Assembly (NCBI GenBank): GCA_902597385.1
Contig: CACJXQ010000001.1
Location: 95,910 to 137,370, forward strand
Source: an uncultured Pseudomonadota bacterium
GTDB taxonomy: Bacteria > Pseudomonadota > Gammaproteobacteria > Ga0077536
DNA length: 41,461 nt
Direction: 5' to 3'
Below are positions 7,833-20,419 of the stretch, piece after piece. Position numbers and translations under genes: made by a program. Every line of letters begins with the position of its first letter. The first letter of the stretch is position 1. The notes beneath the pieces were generated by a model. The model saw nothing but the letters and a program-made list of their open reading frames with translations, ran no database searches and was not told where the DNA came from.

Positions 7833-8360
7833 TCAGTGATTATGAGGTTTTTTATGTCGATGTATCTTTACTGGAAAGCTTTGCTGCATACCGGAGCTCA
7901 ATTTAAAGACTAGATCGATTTCAGATTTTGTCTCTATTTGCTTTGAAGGCTGGTACAACATAAGGTGCTTGCCCCCTCTCTTTAGCACAACCTTGCTCAG
8001 GGCTGGAATAACCGGGGTTTTTTTCATCCTCATCTTAGCTATTCCATCTGTAGAAATGACTGTTTCGTGCCATTCTACTTTTTCGAAGTGATCACTTGAA
8101 AGCGCTTGAATAGATATTTCGTTCTGAGATTTGTTCTGGATGGTCAAATATCCAGCACTGGGAATCTTGGACATTGGGCCTAGGTGAATAGACGCCTCAG
8201 TAACTACTAATTCAGCCTGGGAGATAGTGGACAGCCCGACCAGCATCAGTAGCGTCAAAATCTTTGGAGGAGTAAAAAAGGCGTATTTATGCAGTTTTAG
8301 TACTTCTAAGTCGGAGTAGGTGATTTTCCTGTGCAACGGTTTTTGCTCTTTGTGTTTCAT
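7833..8360 (-). CDS. PCu(A)C-type periplasmic copper chaperone
   Basis: A 175-aa protein from the ATG at 8360. The frame stays open to 8561, but that part overlaps the divergent methyltransferase and is discounted. A hydrophobic signal (ILTLLMLVGLSTISQA) ends near residue 49 after an unusually long N region of about 30 residues, so the true start may be later. The mature domain has the family's Cu(I) ligands: WHET (His98), KMRM (Met110, Met112) and HLML (His132, Met134), with the expected M-x21-H-x-M spacing. PCu(A)C proteins deliver copper to the CuA site of cytochrome oxidase. The His-rich tail HRHKKPHNH may also bind metal. The intergenic gap to the plus-strand methyltransferase is 59 bp. 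Confidence 0.85.
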   Translation of the reverse strand: MKHKEQKPLHRKITYSDLEVLKLHKYAFFTPPKILTLLMLVGLSTISQAELVVTEASIHLGPMSKIPSAGYLTIQNKSQNEISIQALSSDHFEKVEWHETVISTDGIAKMRMKKTPVIPALSKVVLKRGGKHLMLYQPSKQIETKSEIDLVFKLSSGMQQSFPVKIHRHKKPHNH

Positions 8361-8419
8361 TCGGTTTCGGTGTAGCGTTAACTTACTCAAAGTAGAACAA
8401 GGCAAAGGGAGGATATCAT

Positions 8420-9481
8420 ATGGCGGCTTTTGATCAAGCGAAGTTCGAAGCTCTGCAAGGGAGAGTGATGGGTAATGTTGGGGGTGCTGTCGGATTACTT
8501 TTAGCCTATATGGGAGATCAGGTTGGACTCTATAAGGCTTTAGAAGAAAGTGAGGGAGCAACTAGCGAAAAACTGGCAAGACAAACCGGTTTAGACGAAC
8601 GTTATCTACGAGAATGGTTATCAGCGAATGCTGCCCTAGGTTATGTGGATTACTCAGAGCAGAGTAACGAGTTTACTTTGAGCCCGGAGCAGGCGGCTTT
8701 GTTTTCTCATGAGTCTGAACCCACTTGTATGCAGGGTTTTTTCCAAGCCGTCGTTGGGCAATTTGCTACCCATGATAAGGTGGTCGACACCTTTAAATCT
8801 GGGGAGGGGAGACCTTGGGGAGACCACCATCCTTGCTGTTTTTGTGGTACGGATCGTTTTTTTAGGACAGCGTATGATTCTAATTTGGTTGGGAATTGGA
8901 TTCCTGCTTTGAATGGTATTGAAGAGAAACTGAAAAGTGGGGGTCGGGTTGCAGACGTAGGTTGTGGACACGGTTCGTCAAGCTTGCTTATGGCTAAGGC
9001 CTTTCCAAATAGTACTGTTGTTGGGTTTGATTTTCATGGACCATCGATCGACGCAGCCAGAAAAAAAGCAGGTGAGGAAAAGTTAAACAATGTGGAGTTT
9101 GAGGTCAGTGCTGCAAAAGAAATAGAAGCGGGTAATTTTGATTTAGTCTGTATTTTCGATGCTTTACACGATATGGGAGATCCCGTGGGAGCAGCTCAGC
9201 AGGTCGCTAAGATGCTTAATCCCGAGGGTACGTTTATGGTGGTAGAACCTATGGCTGCGGATTCGCTAGGAGAGAACCTGAATCTTCTATCAGGTATCTT
9301 TTACGGATTTTCTACCACAGTTTGCCTTCCAACTTCTCGGGCTCAAGAGGTAGGTTTGTGCTTAGGTGCTCAGGCTGGAGAAAATCGCTTGACCGAGGTT
9401 TTAAAAGAAGCGGGTTTCAAAAATGTAAGACGTGCTACAGAAACGCCCACTAATATGATTCTTGAGGCAAGGTTAAAGTAG
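8420..9481 (+). CDS. SAM-dependent methyltransferase with N-terminal winged helix
   Basis: A 353-aa protein. Residues about 20-95 form a winged-helix, dimerisation-type N domain (LLLAYMGDQVGLYKALEE, LARQTGLDERYLREWLSANAALGYV), and residues about 165-350 a class I Rossmann methyltransferase. Motif I is VADVGCGHGSSSLLMA; the acidic SAM-ribose position follows in VVGFDF, and motif IV is FDLVCIFDALHDM. This two-domain type is common among small-molecule O/N-methyltransferases and related uncharacterised proteins. A Cys-rich patch HHPCCFCGTDRFF near residue 140 is notable. The start has a strong GGGAGG ribosome site. The flavin monooxygenase gene follows after 13 bp, so they are probably cotranscribed. 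Confidence 0.85.
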   Translation: MAAFDQAKFEALQGRVMGNVGGAVGLLLAYMGDQVGLYKALEESEGATSEKLARQTGLDERYLREWLSANAALGYVDYSEQSNEFTLSPEQAALFSHESEPTCMQGFFQAVVGQFATHDKVVDTFKSGEGRPWGDHHPCCFCGTDRFFRTAYDSNLVGNWIPALNGIEEKLKSGGRVADVGCGHGSSSLLMAKAFPNSTVVGFDFHGPSIDAARKKAGEEKLNNVEFEVSAAKEIEAGNFDLVCIFDALHDMGDPVGAAQQVAKMLNPEGTFMVVEPMAADSLGENLNLLSGIFYGFSTTVCLPTSRAQEVGLCLGAQAGENRLTEVLKEAGFKNVRRATETPTNMILEARLK

Positions 9482-10590: not shown

Positions 10591-11664
10591 TCAAAACGCA
10601 TATTGGATGCCTGTACTAATAACGAAATCCTCCTCCATTTGTGGCCCATTTAGCCGTTGATGTATAGGAATTCCTCCTTCTAAGGAAAGCCTAAGCCCTT
10701 TGTATGAAGGTGTTGGTATCCAATTCAATCCGAACAGTATATTTACCTTATCGCCTCCGTAATTGTCTGGATCTGCTGTTTGCACAGGGAGGGTGATATT
10801 TTCATCCCTACCTTTTATTTTTTGAGAAGATTGGTATTTCAGTCTGATTGAGCTACTTAAATGATTTAACCACCTGTACGAAAGCCATCCACTGATTTCA
10901 TGTCGATCCCCAAGGTTCCATCCGTTATCTTTTTGAGTTCGAATTGTTCCATTCCATTGTATCCCCCAACCTAAATTAGAAGAATTTGATGAATAAGTAA
11001 GGCTAGGTAAGAAATCAATTGTGCCGCTTCCATTTTGCATGCCATAGGGTAGCCTTGCTATTGGTGTGGCGCCAGTAGGAGTTAAAATAGTGTCTCTTTC
11101 GGATGTCGAGCCGGTGGGAAGGTTAAAACCTAATCCTAATATTGTTCTTGATGAAGAATCCTTGTAAAGACTAAATAGGCTACTTAATTTTAGGTCTCCT
11201 ATCCCATTCGATTGGGTTTTGAAGGTTCCGCGCAAAGTAGTTCCAAGACCACCTGAAAAAGTTATATGGTCCATCTCCTTTTCTTGATAGCTGCTCATAG
11301 CCATTAAGGTGAGGCTGTCAGATGGGGCGTACATGACCCCAATCATGTGCATATCCATAGTCATTTTGGTAGGAACAACCCGCAGAGTTGGCGGCTGTCC
11401 TGGAAGTCCAAGGAATCTATTAGGCTCAGTAGTAGCGATATCTTCTGGATTTATAGATCTTGAATTCACCCGATTTCCGGCCATTTCCATTCGCATATAT
11501 CTGTAGGAAAACATCCATTCTCCTTTTGCATGGGTGTGATCCCCCATAACCAGATTGGGAGCGTGCCCGTCAGCCAAGGGTGTTACTTTCTGGTGGTCCC
11601 CTGCATTTGAATCAGCTGAGGAGAGGATTGGTAAAAAGAAAACGAAAATCACAAAATAGGGCAT
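10591..11664 (-). CDS. Outer-membrane beta-barrel protein with Met/His-rich N-terminal region
   Basis: A 357-aa protein with a Sec signal (VIFVFFLPILSSADS) and alternating amphipathic strands ending in IQYAF, an aromatic C terminus as expected for BamA-dependent barrels. It resembles the MetA-pathway phenol-degradation/transporter-like barrel family. Residues 30-45 are His-rich (ADGHAPNLVMGDHTHAKGEW). Residues 51-61, 100-111 and 121-134 are Met-rich (YMRMEM, TKMTMDMHMIGVMY, MAMSSYQEKEMDH). Such Met/His clusters suit Cu(I) or another soft metal. It is the last gene of the SDR - hydroxylase - DUF2946-like - barrel operon. It could export or import either a metal or the hydrophobic substrate; the sequence does not decide. 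Confidence 0.7.
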   Translation of the reverse strand: MPYFVIFVFFLPILSSADSNAGDHQKVTPLADGHAPNLVMGDHTHAKGEWMFSYRYMRMEMAGNRVNSRSINPEDIATTEPNRFLGLPGQPPTLRVVPTKMTMDMHMIGVMYAPSDSLTLMAMSSYQEKEMDHITFSGGLGTTLRGTFKTQSNGIGDLKLSSLFSLYKDSSSRTILGLGFNLPTGSTSERDTILTPTGATPIARLPYGMQNGSGTIDFLPSLTYSSNSSNLGWGIQWNGTIRTQKDNGWNLGDRHEISGWLSYRWLNHLSSSIRLKYQSSQKIKGRDENITLPVQTADPDNYGGDKVNILFGLNWIPTPSYKGLRLSLEGGIPIHQRLNGPQMEEDFVISTGIQYAF

Positions 11665-11722
11665 TATTAGTCTCCAAAAAAAGAGGATGCTACCTAAGGT
11701 AGCGTTAAGAAAATGTTCTTCT

Positions 11723-12103
11723 CTAGATTATTTTCGGAGGAGCTTGGCTATTAAAAGTAAAGGTTGCAATGTGATAGGGCTGAATCGATACAGTAGCAGT
11801 GAGGTCGGAAGTGAGGTGAGAGCTCACAAAAAAAATGTTGTGCGGAGCGGTGATGGATAAATCAATTTTTTTATTTAGTAAACAAAGTGAACAATGCGGG
11901 ATTCCAGAGTCTGTGTCAGTCTGGTCGTCATCATTCAAATTAGAGGTAGCGCAGAGGGTGCTTTTTTGGATGTCGTTTCCGTTGGCCCAAGTCGATATAG
12001 TATGAGGCCCTGAGACACTGCTAAGGACGATTAGGGTTGTTAGTGCAATAGAAATAAGACGTTTTGCTTGTGATGAAAAAGTAAAAAAATACACTTGTAT
12101 CAA
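11723..12103 (-). CDS. DUF2946-like small exported protein with CxxC
   Basis: A 126-aa protein with an N-terminal hydrophobic signal or anchor (LISIALTTLIVLSSVSG) and a PHCSLCLLNK motif (Cys71-x2-Cys74), ending in a QAPP tail. This layout, signal then CxxC then a Pro-containing tail, is that of DUF2946 proteins, which often sit next to copper-related outer-membrane receptors. The frame begins at a TTG (12103) that overlaps the hydroxylase stop as TTGA; a GTG at 12094 with AAGG upstream is an alternative start. Translational coupling to the hydroxylase is therefore likely. Its biochemical role is unknown; metal handling is inferred from family context only. Confidence 0.6.
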   Translation of the reverse strand: MIQVYFFTFSSQAKRLISIALTTLIVLSSVSGPHTISTWANGNDIQKSTLCATSNLNDDDQTDTDSGIPHCSLCLLNKKIDLSITAPHNIFFVSSHLTSDLTATVSIQPYHIATFTFNSQAPPKII

Positions 12104-13269
12104 CCTTTATTTTCCCATTTTTCAATTAGACGTCTTTGGGCGGGTTGATAGATGTTTATTTTCTCCATGTCATTTCCGGCCCAGTCCATCACGCGCTTGT
12201 CCATAAGACGATAAAAAATCGGAGGAAACATTGCCGCAATGAACATTATGGAGTAGCAATATGGTAGTCTTGGCGCGGTTTCCATATCACGTAATGCTTG
12301 ATACCAGCGAACAGAGCTAAGATGGTGTGGAGAATGTCGAACAAAGTTAAGCAAAAGGTTATTGGACATGATCATATTCGTATTCCACGAATGCTGCATC
12401 GTAGCCTTTTTATAGCTTCCGTCGGATTGAAGCTCTCTTTTGAGACCGTAGTGTTGGCAGTACTCAATGAGAGTTAAATACCACCAGCAAACATAGGCTT
12501 GGAAGAGCAATAGGAGCAGGACCGGCCATCCGAATACCCAAGTTAGCACACCGAATAAAACAATCGTTATTAGGTGTTGCTGCAACGTTTCATTTTCGAG
12601 GTTCCATACACTCTTACCGCTTCTGTCTGCTTTTGCTTTTTCAGCCTTCCAGGATTCTCTGTAAAAGCCTGGTTGCTGCCTCATGAATCCAAAATGATAT
12701 AAGCTTTCGCCCATTTTGGAGCTGGAGCTGTCATCTGGTGTTGCTACCAGCCGGTGATGACCATTTAGGTGGCCAACTATAAAGTGAGGGACACCGCTGA
12801 TCCCAAGCAGAAATTTTCCTGCTCTTCGGAAGAAGTAAGAAGTTTTGTGTCCTAACTCATGTCCTACGGCAAGCCCAAGTCCTGATACGATCCCTAGCGA
12901 GACACCTATTCCTACATAGTCGACAAGTGGTAAGTCATGATTACCTACAAACCAGCACACATAAGTAATATTTATGAGATATGAAGGAGTTGAAGCAAAC
13001 AATACCTTGTAATAGTAATTGTCTGCTTCGATTTCGCTGAGAAGATCTTCAGGAGGGTTATTGTTATCGGCTGGAAGAGTTTCGTCTAATATCGCTATTA
13101 AAACGAACCAAAACAGTACTGTTAACCAGTATACAATGGGAACGTTGTAGGTGTATCCGAACCAACAACTTAGGCTGGGTAGCAGCGGCAGGAACGGTTG
13201 TGACAGCCAGAAAAACCGTCTCTTATCTTTGTAAAACTCCTCTTTTGCTTCCGAATTTACACTCAACAT
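12100..13269 (-). CDS. alkB: AlkB-type membrane diiron hydroxylase (alkane 1-monooxygenase family)
   Basis: A 389-aa integral membrane protein. All histidine boxes of the alkane-hydroxylase family are present: HELGHK (His137, His141), HLNGHHRLVATPDD (His167, 171, 172), IEYCQHYGLKR (His273) and RHSPHH (His312, 315, 316). Around them lie about six hydrophobic segments. Box 2 reads GHLNGHH where most AlkB proteins have EHNRGHH, so this is a divergent branch. The family inserts oxygen into a terminal C-H bond using two irons and electrons from rubredoxin; no rubredoxin gene is visible in this window. It lies 31 bp after an SDR gene and overlaps the DUF2946-like gene by 4 bp. The substrate may be an alkane, a terpenoid or another aliphatic. 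Confidence 0.85.
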   Translation of the reverse strand: MLSVNSEAKEEFYKDKRRFFWLSQPFLPLLPSLSCWFGYTYNVPIVYWLTVLFWFVLIAILDETLPADNNNPPEDLLSEIEADNYYYKVLFASTPSYLINITYVCWFVGNHDLPLVDYVGIGVSLGIVSGLGLAVGHELGHKTSYFFRRAGKFLLGISGVPHFIVGHLNGHHRLVATPDDSSSSKMGESLYHFGFMRQQPGFYRESWKAEKAKADRSGKSVWNLENETLQQHLITIVLFGVLTWVFGWPVLLLLLFQAYVCWWYLTLIEYCQHYGLKRELQSDGSYKKATMQHSWNTNMIMSNNLLLNFVRHSPHHLSSVRWYQALRDMETAPRLPYCYSIMFIAAMFPPIFYRLMDKRVMDWAGNDMEKINIYQPAQRRLIEKWENKG

Positions 13270-13300
13270 GCGCGCTCTTCCCTCTCACTAATTCATCATT

Positions 13301-14050
13301 TTAATTACAAGTGTATCCGCCGTCTACAATCATCTCTGTGCCTACTACGAAAGAGGATTCATCAGAGGCTAAGTATAAGGCAGCTCCCGCAATTTCTTCG
13401 GCTGTGCCCGCTCTTCCTAGAAGAGTCGGCCCAAGTACTGCCGTTTTAATGTCATTATCTTGCAGCAAATGTTCAGCCATCGGAGTGTTAATAACACCTG
13501 GATGAAGTGAATTAACGCGGATTCCATGGGCGGCATATTCAGTAGCTGCTCCCTTTGTGAAAAGTCGAATCGCCCCTTTGCTTGCTTCGTAGGCTGCTGC
13601 GGTTGGAGCTCCTACTAGTCCATAGATTGAAGACAGATTAACAATAGATCCGCCCTTTCTTACTCTCATCGGTTCAAAAGCTAGCTTCGTGCCAAGAAAA
13701 ATACTAGTTACATTAACTCTAAAAATTTCGTTCCACTCTTCCAGAGAAGTCTCCTGTAGTGATTTCATTAGCAGTATTCCAGCGTTATTGACCAAAACAT
13801 CAAGGCCCCCAAACCGATCGAGACAATTATCTAGGGTTCTTTTCCATTGTTTTTCATCAGTAACGTCTTGGCGTTGGAATACTGCGTCACCTCCCATATC
13901 TAATATCTCTTCTACCACCTTTTCGCCCTCCGGATTAATGTCGGTGGCAACGACTTTGCCGCCTTCAGCGGCAAGTCTTTGAGCTGTAGCCATGCCAATG
14001 CCATTGGCAGCGCCAGTAACCAAGCAAACTTTTCCTTTTACTCTATCCAA
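13301..14050 (-). CDS. SDR family NAD(P)-dependent alcohol dehydrogenase
   Basis: A 249-aa classical short-chain dehydrogenase: nucleotide-binding TGAANGIG (residues 12-19), NNAG at 88-91, and the catalytic triad Ser141 (NLSSIYG), Tyr154 and Lys158 (YEASK). The Asp in VVATDINP suggests NAD rather than NADP preference. It ends in VDGGYTCN. The start is TTG at 14050, because no ATG or GTG precedes the Rossmann motif; a good ribosome site (AGGAGAGGG) lies just upstream. It is the first gene of the operon with the AlkB-type hydroxylase, so oxidation of the hydroxylation product to an aldehyde or ketone is the natural proposal. It resembles cyclopentanol- and hydroxysteroid-dehydrogenase relatives. 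Confidence 0.88.
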   Translation of the reverse strand: MDRVKGKVCLVTGAANGIGMATAQRLAAEGGKVVATDINPEGEKVVEEILDMGGDAVFQRQDVTDEKQWKRTLDNCLDRFGGLDVLVNNAGILLMKSLQETSLEEWNEIFRVNVTSIFLGTKLAFEPMRVRKGGSIVNLSSIYGLVGAPTAAAYEASKGAIRLFTKGAATEYAAHGIRVNSLHPGVINTPMAEHLLQDNDIKTAVLGPTLLGRAGTAEEIAGAALYLASDESSFVVGTEMIVDGGYTCN

Positions 14051-14234: not shown

Positions 14235-14310
14235 GTGCTCAGGGGAGAGCCAGCGGGCATTGTATTTATCCATATTGGCTCGTGCCGTAGTTTGTCAAAA
14301 AAGGGGGGGA

Positions 14311-15735
14311 ATGATGCATATTAGAAAATACGACTTTGATTACAGTCGTCGTTACTTTATGGAAAAAACGTCTAAAGGCGTAGGTTCAGCAGGGATATTG
14401 GCGGCGCTATTTCCGTTAATGGCTAATGGCGAAGGTAGTTACAAAGCGTATCCAGAAGAACTAACAGATATCGAAGCCTACACTAAGGGGCAAATAAAAG
14501 TTGGAGATGAGATCAATGCTGATAATGTCGAACTGGTACAAGATTTAATAGATCCTGGTGTCTATCAGGAGGTCTCACAAGACGGAAGAACTTTTTTCAT
14601 TCTGCCTACTCAAACTAAAATTGAGGAGCAATTCCCTCCTTTTTATTTGGATAAAACGTTACAGAACTGGGGACAAGCAGAGTTTGGTTCCGATGGTAAT
14701 GTGTACACGAAGGATGGAAAACCTTGGATAGGCGGTCACCCTTTCCCAGACCCGCAGACGCCAGAGGAGGCAATCGCCGATATCACCTTGAGTTGGGGAA
14801 GGCACGATCAGGATATATTTGCTATTCCAACCACAGCACTTGATCCAAATGGTAACGTCCAATATGACTATGATTTCGTTTGGGCGCAACAGCAAACGCA
14901 ATGCCTCACTCACCCCGATTCTGCTGGAGGAGCTACAGCTTTACCGGGGAAAGAGCATATGCTGAGGCATCAGTCCGTTTGGTTCACCTATCCAAGTGAT
15001 ATCAAAGGTACTGCGTTCATGAACGAGTGGTATTATGACCAATCGAAATTTCCAGAGTTGTATGGATACTTGCCAGCCTTTAAACGTGTTCGACGTTTCC
15101 CGACTAATCAAAGGTTTGAGCCTTTAGTAGCGGGGATCAATTTATTCTTATCGGATGCTTGGGCTGCCGGCGATCCCATGCTGACCTGGGGGAATTGGAA
15201 AATCGTTCATCGAGGACCTTACCTCGGGGCGATGCACCACAATTGGCTTCCTAATAATGAAAATTGGGACCACCCGAAGGTGGGGGGACCTCAAGGAGGT
15301 AGTTATTACCGGGTAGGTAAAAGTTTGCTTCCAGAGGTTATAGTAATAGAGGGAGAACCTACCGGATTCCCAAGGGCACCATTGAGTAAGCGCAGGATTT
15401 ATTTTGATGCTCGGAATCTGATGTTCCCGCAAGCAATATCCTATGACCGAAGAGGAGAGATATGGAAAACCTTCGAACCTGGTTTTTCTTACAGAAAAAT
15501 CGATGACCAAGTGCTTCCGGAACATGCAGGCAATACTATTAATGCTTCTGACGGAAGGCCCGACTGGAGTTGGAATTGGGTAATTAGTAATGATCTGCAA
15601 AGTGGTCGAATAACTTACTTTCATCAGGCAAAAGAGATTAGAGGAGGGTGGAAATCCGAATATGATTACATGTCTGCTGAGGACTTTATCGGTAAATATA
15701 TGACCAAAACTGCCATGCGTCGACTGGGTACGTAG
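14311..15735 (+). CDS. DUF1329 family protein with Tat signal
   Basis: A 474-aa protein. Start chosen at the ATG-ATG pair 14311/14314 directly after an AGGGGGGG ribosome site; the frame opens at 14260 but that adds 17 residues of no signal character. The N terminus has a twin-arginine motif, SRRYFMEKT (residues 12-20), then GVGSAGILAALFPLMANG, so Tat export is likely. The rest matches DUF1329: repeated PHFP/WNW-type segments such as IGGHPFPDPQTPEEAI, VWFTYPSDIKGTAFM and KRRIYFDARNLMFPQ. The family has a LolA/LolB-like fold and clusters with hydrophobic-substrate degradation genes, usually with DUF1302 and an RND transporter, neither of which is present here. Function is unproven; lipid-like substrate binding in the periplasm is inferred. 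Confidence 0.8.
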   Translation: MMHIRKYDFDYSRRYFMEKTSKGVGSAGILAALFPLMANGEGSYKAYPEELTDIEAYTKGQIKVGDEINADNVELVQDLIDPGVYQEVSQDGRTFFILPTQTKIEEQFPPFYLDKTLQNWGQAEFGSDGNVYTKDGKPWIGGHPFPDPQTPEEAIADITLSWGRHDQDIFAIPTTALDPNGNVQYDYDFVWAQQQTQCLTHPDSAGGATALPGKEHMLRHQSVWFTYPSDIKGTAFMNEWYYDQSKFPELYGYLPAFKRVRRFPTNQRFEPLVAGINLFLSDAWAAGDPMLTWGNWKIVHRGPYLGAMHHNWLPNNENWDHPKVGGPQGGSYYRVGKSLLPEVIVIEGEPTGFPRAPLSKRRIYFDARNLMFPQAISYDRRGEIWKTFEPGFSYRKIDDQVLPEHAGNTINASDGRPDWSWNWVISNDLQSGRITYFHQAKEIRGGWKSEYDYMSAEDFIGKYMTKTAMRRLGT

Positions 15736-15758
15736 TCAATCTGTCGTCGCTTACCAAG

Positions 15759-15797
15759 CCCGCTGGAGTGATTTGCTCTCCAGCGGGTTTTCTTTTT
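15759..15797 (+). terminator. Rho-independent terminator after the DUF1329 gene
   Basis: A perfect 10-bp stem CCCGCTGGAG / CTCCAGCGGG with a 9-nt loop is followed by TTTTCTTTTT. It begins 23 bp after the DUF1329 stop and separates that gene from the TetR gene. Confidence 0.93.
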
Positions 15798-15896
15798 AAG
15801 TACTTTGTGAAGATTCAGTTAATATAAAGGCATATAGAATTGGGAAAGATGGCCAAAAAGTTCGACTAGATAAACTGGCAACTGTATCATTTTTGA

Positions 15897-16517
15897 ATGA
15901 TGTTAAAAAACAATGATGCCAGGACACCTGGCAGACCTCCCAAAGAAGCTGACCAGAAAAACCGGATACTCCTAGAGGCTGCGAAGGCTATTACCTCCGT
16001 TGGGTATGAGCAGTGTAATTTACAAGATATCGCGAGTGCTATAAATCTTAGTCGCCCTGCACTTTACCATTACTTTTCCACGAAACAGGAAATTTTTACA
16101 GCGATTGCTTTGAGGAGTATGAAAGGAATCTATCAATTTGTCTTATCGGAGGTGAAACAAGAAAAGTATGCGTTAAAAAGGTTAGAGCGATTTTTTCTTT
16201 CCCACGCTCAGTACTTCGACGAAAATTTCTGGATGGTTAGTGCCACTATTGTGGGGTACGGAGGTGTTGCCCGAAGGGACATGAGCGAGCGAGAGGCATT
16301 CGAGATGTTTAGAATGAAGTATCTAGGTATGTTGAAGAAGATACTAGAGGACGGTGTAAGTGAAGGTTGCTTTGAGATTAAAGACATCGCTTTGGTTTCT
16401 CGATCGGTATTTCAATTATTGAATATTTCATATTGGTACAAGCCTGATGGAAAAGAAGGCGCTGTCACTATAGCAAAAGAGAATTTTGAACTGCTGATGA
16501 GAGGAATTGTCAAATAG
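15897..16517 (+). CDS. TetR family transcriptional regulator
   Basis: A 206-aa repressor-type protein. Residues about 22-70 form the TetR DNA-binding domain: RILLEAAKAITSVGYEQC, then the helix-turn-helix LQDIASAINLSRPALYHYFSTKQEIFTAI. The C-terminal part (residues 75-206) is a variable all-helical ligand domain. The N terminus ARTPGRPPKEAD is a common flexible basic lead. It lies between the terminator of the DUF1329 gene and a Baeyer-Villiger-type monooxygenase gene 78 bp downstream, so control of these catabolic genes is likely. Its operator may be the inverted repeats at 14193-14234. A hydrophobic catabolic ligand as inducer is inference. Confidence 0.88.
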   Translation: MMLKNNDARTPGRPPKEADQKNRILLEAAKAITSVGYEQCNLQDIASAINLSRPALYHYFSTKQEIFTAIALRSMKGIYQFVLSEVKQEKYALKRLERFFLSHAQYFDENFWMVSATIVGYGGVARRDMSEREAFEMFRMKYLGMLKKILEDGVSEGCFEIKDIALVSRSVFQLLNISYWYKPDGKEGAVTIAKENFELLMRGIVK

Positions 16518-16595
16518 CTGCGCTTCTACGTGAGCAGCGCGCATTTAAATTTATAATTTAAAAATTGAATAGCTAAAAATGGAGAATTAGAGAGT

Positions 16596-18203
16596 ATGGC
16601 AAATTCGGGTATGAAGTACGATGCTGTAATAATAGGTGCTGGGATATCTGGTATGTATCAACTGTACCGATTAAAAAATCTAGGATTATCAGTCAAAGTG
16701 TTTGAGGCGGGAAGCGACGTAGGAGGCACCTGGTATTGGAATAGATATCCGGGATGTCGTTTTGATTCAGAGAGCTATAGTTACTGTTATTCCTTTTCGG
16801 AGGAAGTTTTGGATGAATGGAGTTGGTCGGAACATTTTTCTGCTCAACCGGAGACATTGAAGTATCTACAGTATGTGGCCGAAAAGTTTGATTTAAAAAA
16901 AGATATTCAATTTAATACTAGAATAGCCTCTGCGTCTTTTGATGTAAATAGTTGCAAGTGGACCACTATTTCTGTTGATGGGACAGCGGTGACATCCGAT
17001 TTTCTGATAACAGCTATTGGAGCCCTCTCCTCGCCTTATATTCCAGATTTTTGTGGTAGAGAGAGTTTTAAAGGTGACTCATGGCATACGTCTCAGTGGC
17101 CTAAGAGAGATATTGATCTGAGTGATAAGAAAGTTGGCGTAATTGGAACCGGAGCTACCGCGGTGCAGCTTATTACTGAGATCGCTAAAGACATCGGAAA
17201 TTTAACGGTCTTCCAATTGAAGCCAGAATATTGCGTCCCATTAGGGAACAGGCCAATAGATGAGAATACTCAGCGTGATATTAAGAAAAATTATGCCAGT
17301 TATTTTGAAAAGTGTAAAAACACCTGGGGTTCCTTCCTTCATGGTTTTGATGAAAGGTCTGCTCTAGAGGTGAGCCCGGAAGAAAGAGAAGAACTCTTTG
17401 AAAAGTTGTGGGCGGAGCCAGGCTTCGCGTTGTGGCTTGCGAACTTCCATGACATTTTTTCGAATCGCGAAGCCAATGATTTGGTGTCTGATTTCGTGAG
17501 GAAAAAAATTAAAGAGCAAATTGATGATCCTGTACTGGCAGAAAAGTTGTGTCCGACGGATCACGGATTTGGCTTAAGAAGAGTGCCGATGGAGAGCGGG
17601 TATTATAAAGTGTACGGTCAAGACAATGTGACTTTGGTTGATCTCAATGAAACACCGATCGAAAAAATAACGGAAACAGGAATAAAAACTAGAGCCGAAA
17701 GTTTTGATTTTGACCTAATAATTTATGCTACTGGATTTGACGCAGTTACTGGAGCATTTAAGCATATAGATATAAGTGGAGAGGGAGGCCAAAAATTAAA
17801 AGACAAATGGGTTGATGGCCCCTCTACTTATTTGGGCCTGACTTCTACCGGATTCCCTAATTTATTTACTCTCGTTGGTCCTCACAATGCGGCGACTTTT
17901 TGTAATATTCCAAGGTGTATTGAACAAAATGTGGAGTGGGTCACTGACTGTATAAAATATCTTAAGGACAATAAGTTTATTAAAATATCGGCTAAGTTAT
18001 CTTCAGAGAAAAGTTGGACGGAGCATGTCTATGATAGCGTTGCTGACTCTCTTATCCTAGAGACTGATTCTTGGTTTGTAGGGGCGAATATTCCTGGAAA
18101 GAAAAGAACTTTCCTGCAATATGCAGGGGGCAACCCACTCTATCGGGAGAAGTGTGACGAGGAAGCATCAGGTGGTTATAAGGGCTTCTTGTTAGAGAGA
18201 TGA
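16596..18203 (+). CDS. Baeyer-Villiger-type flavin monooxygenase (cyclohexanone monooxygenase-like)
   Basis: A 535-aa class B flavoprotein monooxygenase. It has an N-terminal FAD motif GAGISG (residues 14-19), the GGTWYWNRYPG segment (43-53), the Baeyer-Villiger fingerprint FKGDSWHTSQWP (158-169, consensus FxGxxxHTxxWP) and a second Rossmann motif for NADPH, GTGATA (184-189). A later YATGFD motif is also typical. These enzymes insert oxygen next to a ketone, giving an ester or lactone. It follows the TetR gene by 78 bp. With the SDR and membrane hydroxylase nearby it could act after hydroxylation and oxidation of a cyclic or long-chain substrate. No esterase or lactonase gene for the product is seen in the window. 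Confidence 0.9.
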   Translation: MANSGMKYDAVIIGAGISGMYQLYRLKNLGLSVKVFEAGSDVGGTWYWNRYPGCRFDSESYSYCYSFSEEVLDEWSWSEHFSAQPETLKYLQYVAEKFDLKKDIQFNTRIASASFDVNSCKWTTISVDGTAVTSDFLITAIGALSSPYIPDFCGRESFKGDSWHTSQWPKRDIDLSDKKVGVIGTGATAVQLITEIAKDIGNLTVFQLKPEYCVPLGNRPIDENTQRDIKKNYASYFEKCKNTWGSFLHGFDERSALEVSPEEREELFEKLWAEPGFALWLANFHDIFSNREANDLVSDFVRKKIKEQIDDPVLAEKLCPTDHGFGLRRVPMESGYYKVYGQDNVTLVDLNETPIEKITETGIKTRAESFDFDLIIYATGFDAVTGAFKHIDISGEGGQKLKDKWVDGPSTYLGLTSTGFPNLFTLVGPHNAATFCNIPRCIEQNVEWVTDCIKYLKDNKFIKISAKLSSEKSWTEHVYDSVADSLILETDSWFVGANIPGKKRTFLQYAGGNPLYREKCDEEASGGYKGFLLER

Positions 18204-18373
18204 TCTTTTGTAAGATATTGTGCCCAGTTTCTTTCTGACTAGCTATATTTTTGGCTGTTTTCAGCCGATCACAATGTTCTCAGGCACAAAGGATTAGAAT
18301 TTCTTTTGTTTTAATGGAATTCTTTTCCGAATAAGTTTATTTTTCTCTGCCATGATTCAGAACAACTACGAGT

Positions 18374-20419
18374 GTGAAACCAGTGCCAAATAAAAAAATC
18401 TTACTTTTTTTCTTTTTCTTCTATTTTACTTTAGGATCCTCGCTTTTTGCCGCTGAAGAGGTATATGTGAATGCTACACGAGTACAGAGTAGCCTGAAAG
18501 GCGTGCCTTTAGCCGTCAGTGTTGTGCGGTCTGAAGAAATAAAAAATAGACAGTTGCTCGGTTTGGATGAATCCATGGCTAGAATACCAGGATTGTTTTT
18601 TTCTAATCGTTATAATTATTCAAGAGATCTTAGACTATCGATCAGGGGATTTGGTGCGCGCTCTAATTTTGGAATCCGAGGAATAAAGGTTTTTATTGAC
18701 GACATACCATCAACTGCACCGGATGGGCAAACGGCTTTAGATGATCTAGATCTCAGTAACATAGAAAAAATAGAAGTAATTAGAGGGCCGGCATCTGCTT
18801 TGTATGGAGCTTCAGCGGGAGGTGTTATCAATATCTATACTGAAGATGGGGGGGACAACGAATTTTTTGAAATCGGCTCAATGCTAGGAGAGTATTCGTT
18901 TCTTCGAGAGCAAATAAAGGTGGGAGGCAAAAAAGATAAGTTAAGTTATTTACTGAATGGCTCTTATCTGAACTATGGGGGATATAGACAGCACTCGGAT
19001 GTGAAGCAAGGTAACTTGAGTGGGAAATTTAAGTACGAATTCGGAGACGGCTCTGTAGGTCGGTTGATACTGCGGGCGGTGGATTCTCCTGAGGCTGAAG
19101 ACTCCGGCGGTTTAAATCAGACTGAAAGGGCGCTAAGCAGACGGTCTGCTCGTCAACGAAATTTGGATTTAGATGCTGGAGAGGAAGTGGCTGATAAGAA
19201 AGTTGGAGCAATTTGGGAAAAAACGATTGGAAACCATTCGTTGCGTCTGAAAAATTATTATAACTGGAGAAACTTTGACGCAAAATTACCTATAACGCCT
19301 TTTATTGGCGCAGGAATCGTTAAACTCGATCGTTTCTTTTTTGGGGGAGGTTTTCAATATTCAAATTCAGCTGCCTTTCTTGGAAAAGCTAATCGGTTAA
19401 CGGTGGGAGTAGATGTGGATTCGATGGAAGATGATCGACGTCGGTTCAATAACTTGTCAGGAACCCAAGGCCCCTTGCAATTTGATCAAGATGAAAAAGC
19501 GAATACGGTTGGTATTTTTCTGCAAGAGGAACTCTCTCTATCTGAGAAAATGCTTCTTACATTCGGGCTGCGCTATGACCATGTAAAGTTCGAAATAGAG
19601 GATAAGTTTCTCGCAAATGGCGACCAGTCGGAGACTCTGAAGTTTAATGAACTTAATTATTCGATTGGCGCCTCCTATGAGCTTCTGCCGTCACTTAATA
19701 TTTATGCAAATCGTTCAACAGCTTTTGAAACTCCAACCTTCACTGAATTTGCTAACCCAAGTAACAATGGGAGTTTGGGCGGCTTTGCAAATGTTGCCGC
19801 TCAGCGAACTGAAGGCTATGAAGTTGGAATTAAGGGAGCCTTCTTTGATCGAGTGAGCTATGAGATGGCTTTTTACCATCTGGATGTAGAAGACGAAGTC
19901 ACAACAGTAACTAATATCGGAGGTCGGGCTTTTTTCAATAATGCTGATACGGAGCGAAGGGGGGTAGAGCTAGGCTTTGATGCGAGTGTTTTCTCAGGTT
20001 TGGATCTCTTAGGGACATATACTTACTCTGATTTGGAGTTTGATAGATTTGTCAACGTGCCAAATGCTGTTGGTTCTCAGTTGCCTGGTGTACCAGAGCA
20101 CCATGCTTATGTGGAGCTAGATTATAGACACCCATCAGGAGTTTTTTTCAAATGGGATTGGTCCTACATTGGTTCGATGTATGCTGACAACTTAAATAAT
20201 GTAGAGGTCGATAACTATAACTTATCGAATATTGTTCTGGGTTATACAAAGAAACTAAAACGGATCTCGATTTCGCCTCGTATTGGTGTTAATAATCTAT
20301 TTAAGCAAGATTATAATCAAGAGATTAGAATTCAAGACGCCACAAATAGGTTTTTTGAGCCCGGGCCAGGCAGAAACTTCTACGGTTCTATCAATTTACG
20401 ATATGAATTTTCCGACTAA
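18374..20419 (+). CDS. TonB-dependent outer-membrane receptor
   Basis: A 681-aa protein with a signal peptide (ILLFFFFFYFTLGSSLFA) and a TonB-box-like start EEVYVNATRV. A plug domain spans about residues 40-150, with LSIRGFGARSNFGIRGIKVFIDDIP, APDGQTALDDLDLSNIEKIEVIRGP and ALYGASAGGVINI. A 22-strand-type barrel follows, ending LRYEFSD. The plug resembles the YncD/PqqU-like and FecA-like receptors. The start is GTG at 18374; a second GTG at 18383 is also possible. The gene follows the Baeyer-Villiger gene after 170 bp, with no terminator seen, only a short hairpin at 18253-18266. Substrate unknown: a siderophore, a cofactor or the catabolic substrate of the neighbouring enzymes. Confidence 0.88.
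   Translation: MKPVPNKKILLFFFFFYFTLGSSLFAAEEVYVNATRVQSSLKGVPLAVSVVRSEEIKNRQLLGLDESMARIPGLFFSNRYNYSRDLRLSIRGFGARSNFGIRGIKVFIDDIPSTAPDGQTALDDLDLSNIEKIEVIRGPASALYGASAGGVINIYTEDGGDNEFFEIGSMLGEYSFLREQIKVGGKKDKLSYLLNGSYLNYGGYRQHSDVKQGNLSGKFKYEFGDGSVGRLILRAVDSPEAEDSGGLNQTERALSRRSARQRNLDLDAGEEVADKKVGAIWEKTIGNHSLRLKNYYNWRNFDAKLPITPFIGAGIVKLDRFFFGGGFQYSNSAAFLGKANRLTVGVDVDSMEDDRRRFNNLSGTQGPLQFDQDEKANTVGIFLQEELSLSEKMLLTFGLRYDHVKFEIEDKFLANGDQSETLKFNELNYSIGASYELLPSLNIYANRSTAFETPTFTEFANPSNNGSLGGFANVAAQRTEGYEVGIKGAFFDRVSYEMAFYHLDVEDEVTTVTNIGGRAFFNNADTERRGVELGFDASVFSGLDLLGTYTYSDLEFDRFVNVPNAVGSQLPGVPEHHAYVELDYRHPSGVFFKWDWSYIGSMYADNLNNVEVDNYNLSNIVLGYTKKLKRISISPRIGVNNLFKQDYNQEIRIQDATNRFFEPGPGRNFYGSINLRYEFSD

Follow-up and report, generated by a model that had tools for sequence, protein, structure and literature searches.

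Why should the gene for a diiron alkane hydroxylase be followed, on the same strand, by genes that look as if they belong to copper homeostasis? The question is raised by a 41,461-nucleotide stretch of DNA from an uncultured gammaproteobacterium (contig CACJXQ010000001.1, positions 95,910 to 137,370; hereafter the window), in which the list of open reading frames (ORFs) shows the minus-strand order SDR dehydrogenase, AlkB-type hydroxylase, small CxxC protein and beta-barrel with Met/His clusters. The original prediction had given these four ORFs, their strands and their order, including the TTG start of the SDR gene, and all of this was confirmed. It had also regarded the small DUF2946-like protein, the Met-rich barrel and a PCu(A)C chaperone as copper-type genes that fit poorly with a diiron hydroxylase, a view we share, and it had offered two explanations: either the barrel supplies the hydroxylase with a hydrophobic substrate, or the hydroxylase depends on a metal-handling module. 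Our analysis points elsewhere. In the reading that we prefer, with a probability of roughly 0.7, the small ORF is a CruR/CutF-type copper-responsive leader that controls a candidate outer-membrane copper channel, and AlkB happens to precede the pair here.

The small ORF and its linkage to the barrel gene

The small ORF occupies minus-strand positions 11723-12094 when read from a GTG, or 11723-12103 when read from a TTG, and is followed after a gap of 58 nt by the barrel gene (10591-11664, minus). Its product contains CSLC (codons at 11882-11893), a putative Cu(I) site, followed by 45 residues, the sequence QAPP (codons at 11735-11746) and three final residues. This layout is identical in the congener G002, and in both genomes the distance from CxxC to the C-terminal motif falls within 45 ± 2 residues. 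The same anatomy is found in CruR of Bordetella pertussis, a copper-sensing arrest peptide in which CxxC is followed by 45 residues and by RAPP three residues from the end (PMC9426467). QAPP is the apparent counterpart of the RAPP arrest motif: the window and G002 share the conserved C-terminal ATFTFNSQAPPKI and keep APP and its distance to the C-terminus, with Gln in place of the Arg found in the RAPP or RGPP of related leaders.

Barrel relatives are present in 24 of 96 related genomes. We examined 80 named loci, those whose barrels are the closest, and scored as a leader any small ORF that lies within 700 nt upstream of the barrel and has RAPP or RGPP no more than 10 residues from its end. 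Such an ORF was found at 54 of the 80 loci, compared with 10 of 2232 background windows of the same DNA (0.4%). Most of these leaders carry a CxxC, CxxW or CxxF sequence 42-48 residues before the motif. A gammaproteobacterial subgroup (L071, L072, L080, L090, L094, L112, L137 and similar) has CxxW for CxxC, 42-43 residues from RAPP, and Roseovarius leaders have CPFF at the position of the Cys motif.

Assignment of the small protein to DUF2946, as originally predicted, stood only in part. The window protein gave no PF11162 match even at E 0.1, nor, at E 1, did its ortholog in G002, and a search over the window's own genome with this profile also returned no match, but 30 of 36 proteins at the same position in other genomes matched at E≤1, mostly weakly (best 4.5e-7), and the motif architecture is shared. 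Because the PF11162 cut-off is not reached, we file the window protein as CruR/CutF-like rather than as a Pfam DUF2946 member. The small protein has a hydrophobic, signal-peptide-like N-terminus plus CxxC, and leaders of this kind are nearly unconserved (mean column identity 18%) except for the Cys residues, the spacing and the C-terminal motif. The small ORF is probably a copper-sensing CruR/CutF-type leader that controls the barrel, not a working metal-handling protein, and the core unit, leaving aside the pairing with AlkB, is leader plus Met-ladder barrel.

The AlkB-small ORF-barrel junction also occurs in G002 (AG-365-F14), and since this is an independent single-cell genome the junction is not an assembly error; the G002 contig ends inside AlkB, so this evidence covers AlkB-small ORF-barrel and not SDR-AlkB. 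An overlap between the AlkB stop and the start of the small ORF had been proposed. It amounts to 4 bases with the TTG start, but that start is not conserved: the aligned codon of G002 reads TTC and the next T-run is one T shorter, which leaves the start uncertain. The window offers an alternative GTG, 5 nt past the AlkB stop and preceded by AAAGG. Judged from these two sequences, what is conserved is the close abutment of the small ORF to the end of AlkB, not the overlap. With AlkB abutting upstream, the leader is not the first gene of its same-strand run, a position that is typical of the CruR/CutF type. No promoter inside AlkB stood out in a promoter scan.

Predicted pairing between the probable leader and the barrel Shine-Dalgarno sequence

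The predicted fold of the junction pairs CUCCGAAAA, an anti-Shine-Dalgarno (anti-SD) segment in the A-P-P-K codons (11731-11739, minus, within those for P-P-K), with the Shine-Dalgarno (SD) sequence of the barrel, UUUUUGGAG (11672-11680, minus), which is thereby sequestered. The fold has a z score of -2.9, and 2 of 200 shuffles were as good. G002 forms the same SD:anti-SD helix. In relatives the pairing occupies the corresponding position but its sequences differ, as in the pairs CCCCCGCUUU/AAAGCGAGGGG and UCUCAGC/GCUGAGGA. Over 25 non-redundant loci, the mean pairing energy of a leader with its own barrel was -14.7 kcal/mol versus -10.1 kcal/mol for swapped partners (permutation p 5e-5). When the last 150 nt of the leader plus the gap were searched, the best partner of the SD lay in the zone from motif to stop codon at 17 of the 25 loci, with 4.8 expected; since a script picked the barrel start codons, the pairing given for a few loci may be wrong. 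Because swapping weakens the pairing, the pairing is specific to each locus and not a matter of CCN CCN codons matching any SD. The region of the leader from APP to the stop codon thus pairs with the SD of its own barrel.

Within the loop of this helix the window has a hairpin (GCTACC-TTA-GGTAGC; 11689-11703, minus) with a T-rich run after it; the hairpin is kept in G002 with one G-U change. Promoter and terminator scans gave matches no more numerous than in shuffles, and for this reason we do not claim the hairpin as a terminator.

The barrel, its neighbours and the hydroxylase

The AlphaFold model of the barrel (pLDDT 91) has a predicted 12-stranded, COG4313/Phenol_MetA_deg-like outer-membrane fold. 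Foldseek matched it to the COG4313 channel 4rl8 (E 4.5e-14, TM 0.78 by target) and to FapF (2.5e-14), and more weakly to FadL/TodX. It shares with 4rl8 and FapF (5o65) the 12-stranded barrel and an N-terminal segment before strand 1; it differs from them in sequence (about 10-13% identity) and in the Met ladder and MxxHxH segment of the present family, and the known members of those families are described as serving hydrophobic uptake or amyloid export, not copper. A profile comparison with the phenol-degradation-type family, suggested in the original prediction, gave a divided answer: the window barrel has no PF13557 match, but 35 of 57 family members do at E≤1 (best 2.3e-8). A barrel profile found no credible match among PDB sequences, and a search of a viral fold library returned generic barrels only.

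The ladder consists of about 12 near-invariant Met per barrel (57 sequences), which all line a single face of strands 1-3, against about 0.1 on the opposite face. M40, H43 and H45 in the N-terminal MxxHxH segment (MGDHxH in the window) are conserved as well. The Met face is the more polar side on strands 1 and 3, strand 2 being ambiguous, and the ladder probably faces the barrel lumen. These features make the barrel a candidate Cu(I) channel, a role in which it would transport copper. Relatives on plasmids are 28-38% identical and annotated 'transporter' or 'alpha-amylase', labels that do not settle function; their neighbours are cytochrome c maturation genes (Ruegeria plasmids) and feoB/PepSY genes (a Methylosinus plasmid).

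The leader adjoins, across its 58-nt gap, a gene of metal-homeostasis type whose own metal role we infer, and copper genes lie near. The PCu(A)C periplasmic copper chaperone gene, predicted 2.2 kb from the barrel, is indeed there on the same strand (7833-8561, minus; PF04314, E 4.2e-21), with two opposite-strand genes in between. At 11 loci PCu(A)C comes immediately after the barrel (6 of them checked by Pfam), and that of the window is probably a distant member of the same copper module. In G074, whose genome measures 1.1 Mb, PCu(A)C and a barrel relative are joined in one gene, with a RAPP leader in front of it (L034 5711-7535). CusF precedes one distant barrel relative. The PCu(A)C link suggests a role in copper acquisition, and the Cus-type link of distant relatives suggests one in efflux.

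The hydroxylase (12100-13269, minus) is by its sequence clearly a genuine AlkB alkane monooxygenase: residues 12-385 match PDB 8sbb with E 2.7e-91, and its HELGHK, HLNGHH, QHYG and RHSPHH align with the His boxes of that structure. It shares with the AlkB structures 8sbb and 8f6t the full-length match and the histidine motifs of the diiron site; it differs in that no rubredoxin was found (no PF00301 match in the window genome G000, which is 72.7% complete). Nor is it part of the copper unit. Among the 80 barrel loci, AlkB lies within 6 kb of the barrel only in G002, and G000 and G002 are the only genomes in which the order AlkB-small protein-barrel was found. Same-family and wider relatives have other genes around the barrel, AlkB not being one of them. 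In the sister genus AlkB is about 62% identical and sits on contigs other than that of the barrel. Because AlkB is absent at 79 of 80 loci and off-contig in the sister genus, its link to the barrel is a genus-level event, AlkB being a genus-specific upstream neighbour of the copper unit. A general functional link between hydroxylase and barrel was considered and rejected on the same grounds. The original prediction would have taken an order seen in a single genome as chance; the AlkB link, confined to one genus, comes close to that, and what is widespread is the pair of DUF2946-like protein and barrel.

The SDR gene (13301-14050, minus; PF13561, E 5.8e-70) heads the same-strand run and belongs with the catabolic genes nearby rather than with the copper unit. 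A plus-strand run at 14260-20419, encoding a DUF1329 protein, a TetR regulator, a flavin monooxygenase resembling Baeyer-Villiger monooxygenases (BVMO) and a TonB receptor, adjoins SDR and AlkB; together these genes suggest that a hydrophobic compound is hydroxylated, converted to a ketone and oxidised in a Baeyer-Villiger reaction. In the sister genus g3 (L024-L029) the barrel stands among luciferase-like oxidoreductases and genes of CoA-transferase type, so there too the copper unit is lodged in a catabolic neighbourhood.

Several observations weigh against a working leader and copper channel at this locus. No R[AG]PP leader precedes the barrel at 26 of the 80 loci, some of which have RDPP or RGSP variants, and among 38 more distant barrels a leader could be recognised for just 4; leader control is therefore a feature of the closer barrel subfamily. 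Those COG4313 proteins whose role is known transport hydrophobic compounds (PMC4493636). The Arg that is replaced in QAPP is irreplaceable in ApcA, ApdA, ApdP and SecM (PMC12992588), so pausing at QAPP may be lost, silent or weaker. The dN/dS of the leader between the window genome and G002 is about 1.1, and in G002 the barrel (L070 1135-2211) and PCu(A)C (G002:C4:4336-4992) each contain one in-frame stop; on these two counts the copper module may be decaying in the genus. Were that so, the arrest Arg would have been lost, as its absence from both congeners and the T-run indel at the leader start would fit, and translation of the barrel would now be driven only by coupling to the transcription and translation of AlkB and SDR. 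We consider such decay rather unlikely, since the exact 45-residue spacing, the C-terminal ATFTFNSQAPPKI and the SD:anti-SD helix are kept in both genomes and the dN/dS of the barrel is 0.20. The leader value is no proof of decay because such leaders are barely conserved outside their motifs, and the G002 stops may be real or may be errors of single-cell amplification.

That the barrel is instead a COG4313 channel for hydrophobic substrates serving AlkB, in an operon for uptake and oxidation of alkanes or terpenoids with the small protein incidental, seems improbable. The nearest solved folds do include 4rl8 and, more weakly, FadL/TodX, channels of the COG4313 type have been linked to uptake of hydrophobics (PMC4493636), and AlkB and a catabolic cluster that contains a BVMO gene are adjacent. 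However, AlkB is missing from the 6 kb around the barrel at the other 79 loci, in the sister genus its best relatives are on other contigs than the barrel, and the barrel family has a near-invariant Met ladder, the MxxHxH segment and PCu(A)C neighbours. With the AlkB link confined to one genus and the leader-barrel pair widespread without AlkB, neither the idea that the barrel feeds the hydroxylase nor a dependence of the hydroxylase on the metal module is supported. More improbable still is a role for the small protein as a periplasmic copper binder that works in trans on the barrel or on PCu(A)C. Its signal-peptide-like N-terminus and CxxC would suit that role, but the described homologues, CruR and CutF, work in cis, and no mature protein of either was detected (PMC9426467, PMC9973294); outside the Cys residues, the spacing and the motif at the C-terminus, the sequence is nearly unconserved.

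A proposed switch and its known counterparts

If the small ORF is a copper-responsive leader, its product would be made to be sensed while nascent. Copper, the presumed ligand, binding at CSLC 45 residues before the arrest-like motif would change pausing of the ribosome on the last codons. A paused ribosome would cover CUCCGAAAA and free UUUUUGGAG, turning the barrel on; a ribosome that finishes the leader would let the helix form and turn it off. Copper could act in either direction, and there is a precedent for each: the target of CruR is switched on by copper scarcity (PMC9426467), that of CutF by copper abundance (PMC9973294). The leader may be reached from AlkB, by readthrough or reinitiation. 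AlkB and SDR belong to the adjacent catabolic cluster and would have come to lie upstream by a genus-level rearrangement. The Met ladder and MxxHxH would suit Cu(I), and the channel may work with periplasmic PCu(A)C.

Little is known of how copper passes the outer membrane when no TonB-dependent receptor takes part. A leader-barrel-PCu(A)C unit conserved in alpha- and gammaproteobacteria provides a specific candidate channel family with a readable regulatory switch; the leader-barrel pair was seen in dozens of marine bacteria, the hydroxylase being a neighbour in one genus. We tentatively extend this, at somewhat less than even odds, to the Met-ladder barrel family of COG4313 fold as a whole: it may be a non-TonB copper channel governed by nascent-chain copper sensors whose arrest and stop codons double as the anti-SD of the channel, placed in this marine genus behind an alkane hydroxylase and carrying the QAPP variant. 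Two related genomes have QAPP with the spacing otherwise kept, and nature thus offers a way to ask if another residue can stand in for the arrest arginine. What appears to be new is the Met-ladder barrel as a target of a CruR/CutF-type leader; term searches of the papers on CruR and CutF found no mention of it in their main texts, although their supplementary tables might have an entry.

The closest counterparts are the two described leaders. CruR, the DUF2946 leader of bfrG, is likewise a small exported-type ORF directly upstream of a gene for an outer-membrane protein, with CxxC, 45 residues, x-A-P-P and 3 residues, in a context of copper homeostasis (PMC9426467), and its arrest has been shown in vitro (PMC12992588). 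CruR heads its operon, controls a TonB-dependent transporter across a 162-bp gap and works through Rho-dependent termination (PMC9426467), whereas the window has AlkB upstream, a 58-nt gap with SD sequestration, a predicted 12-stranded non-TonB barrel as the target, and QAPP. CutF of Rhodobacter capsulatus, the leader of cutO, shares with the window leader a Cys motif, a proline-rich C-terminus and a stem-loop in which an anti-SD pairs with the SD of the next gene and controls it; it differs in its CxxxC, in its multicopper oxidase target and in that copper promotes rather than relieves the pause (PMC9973294).

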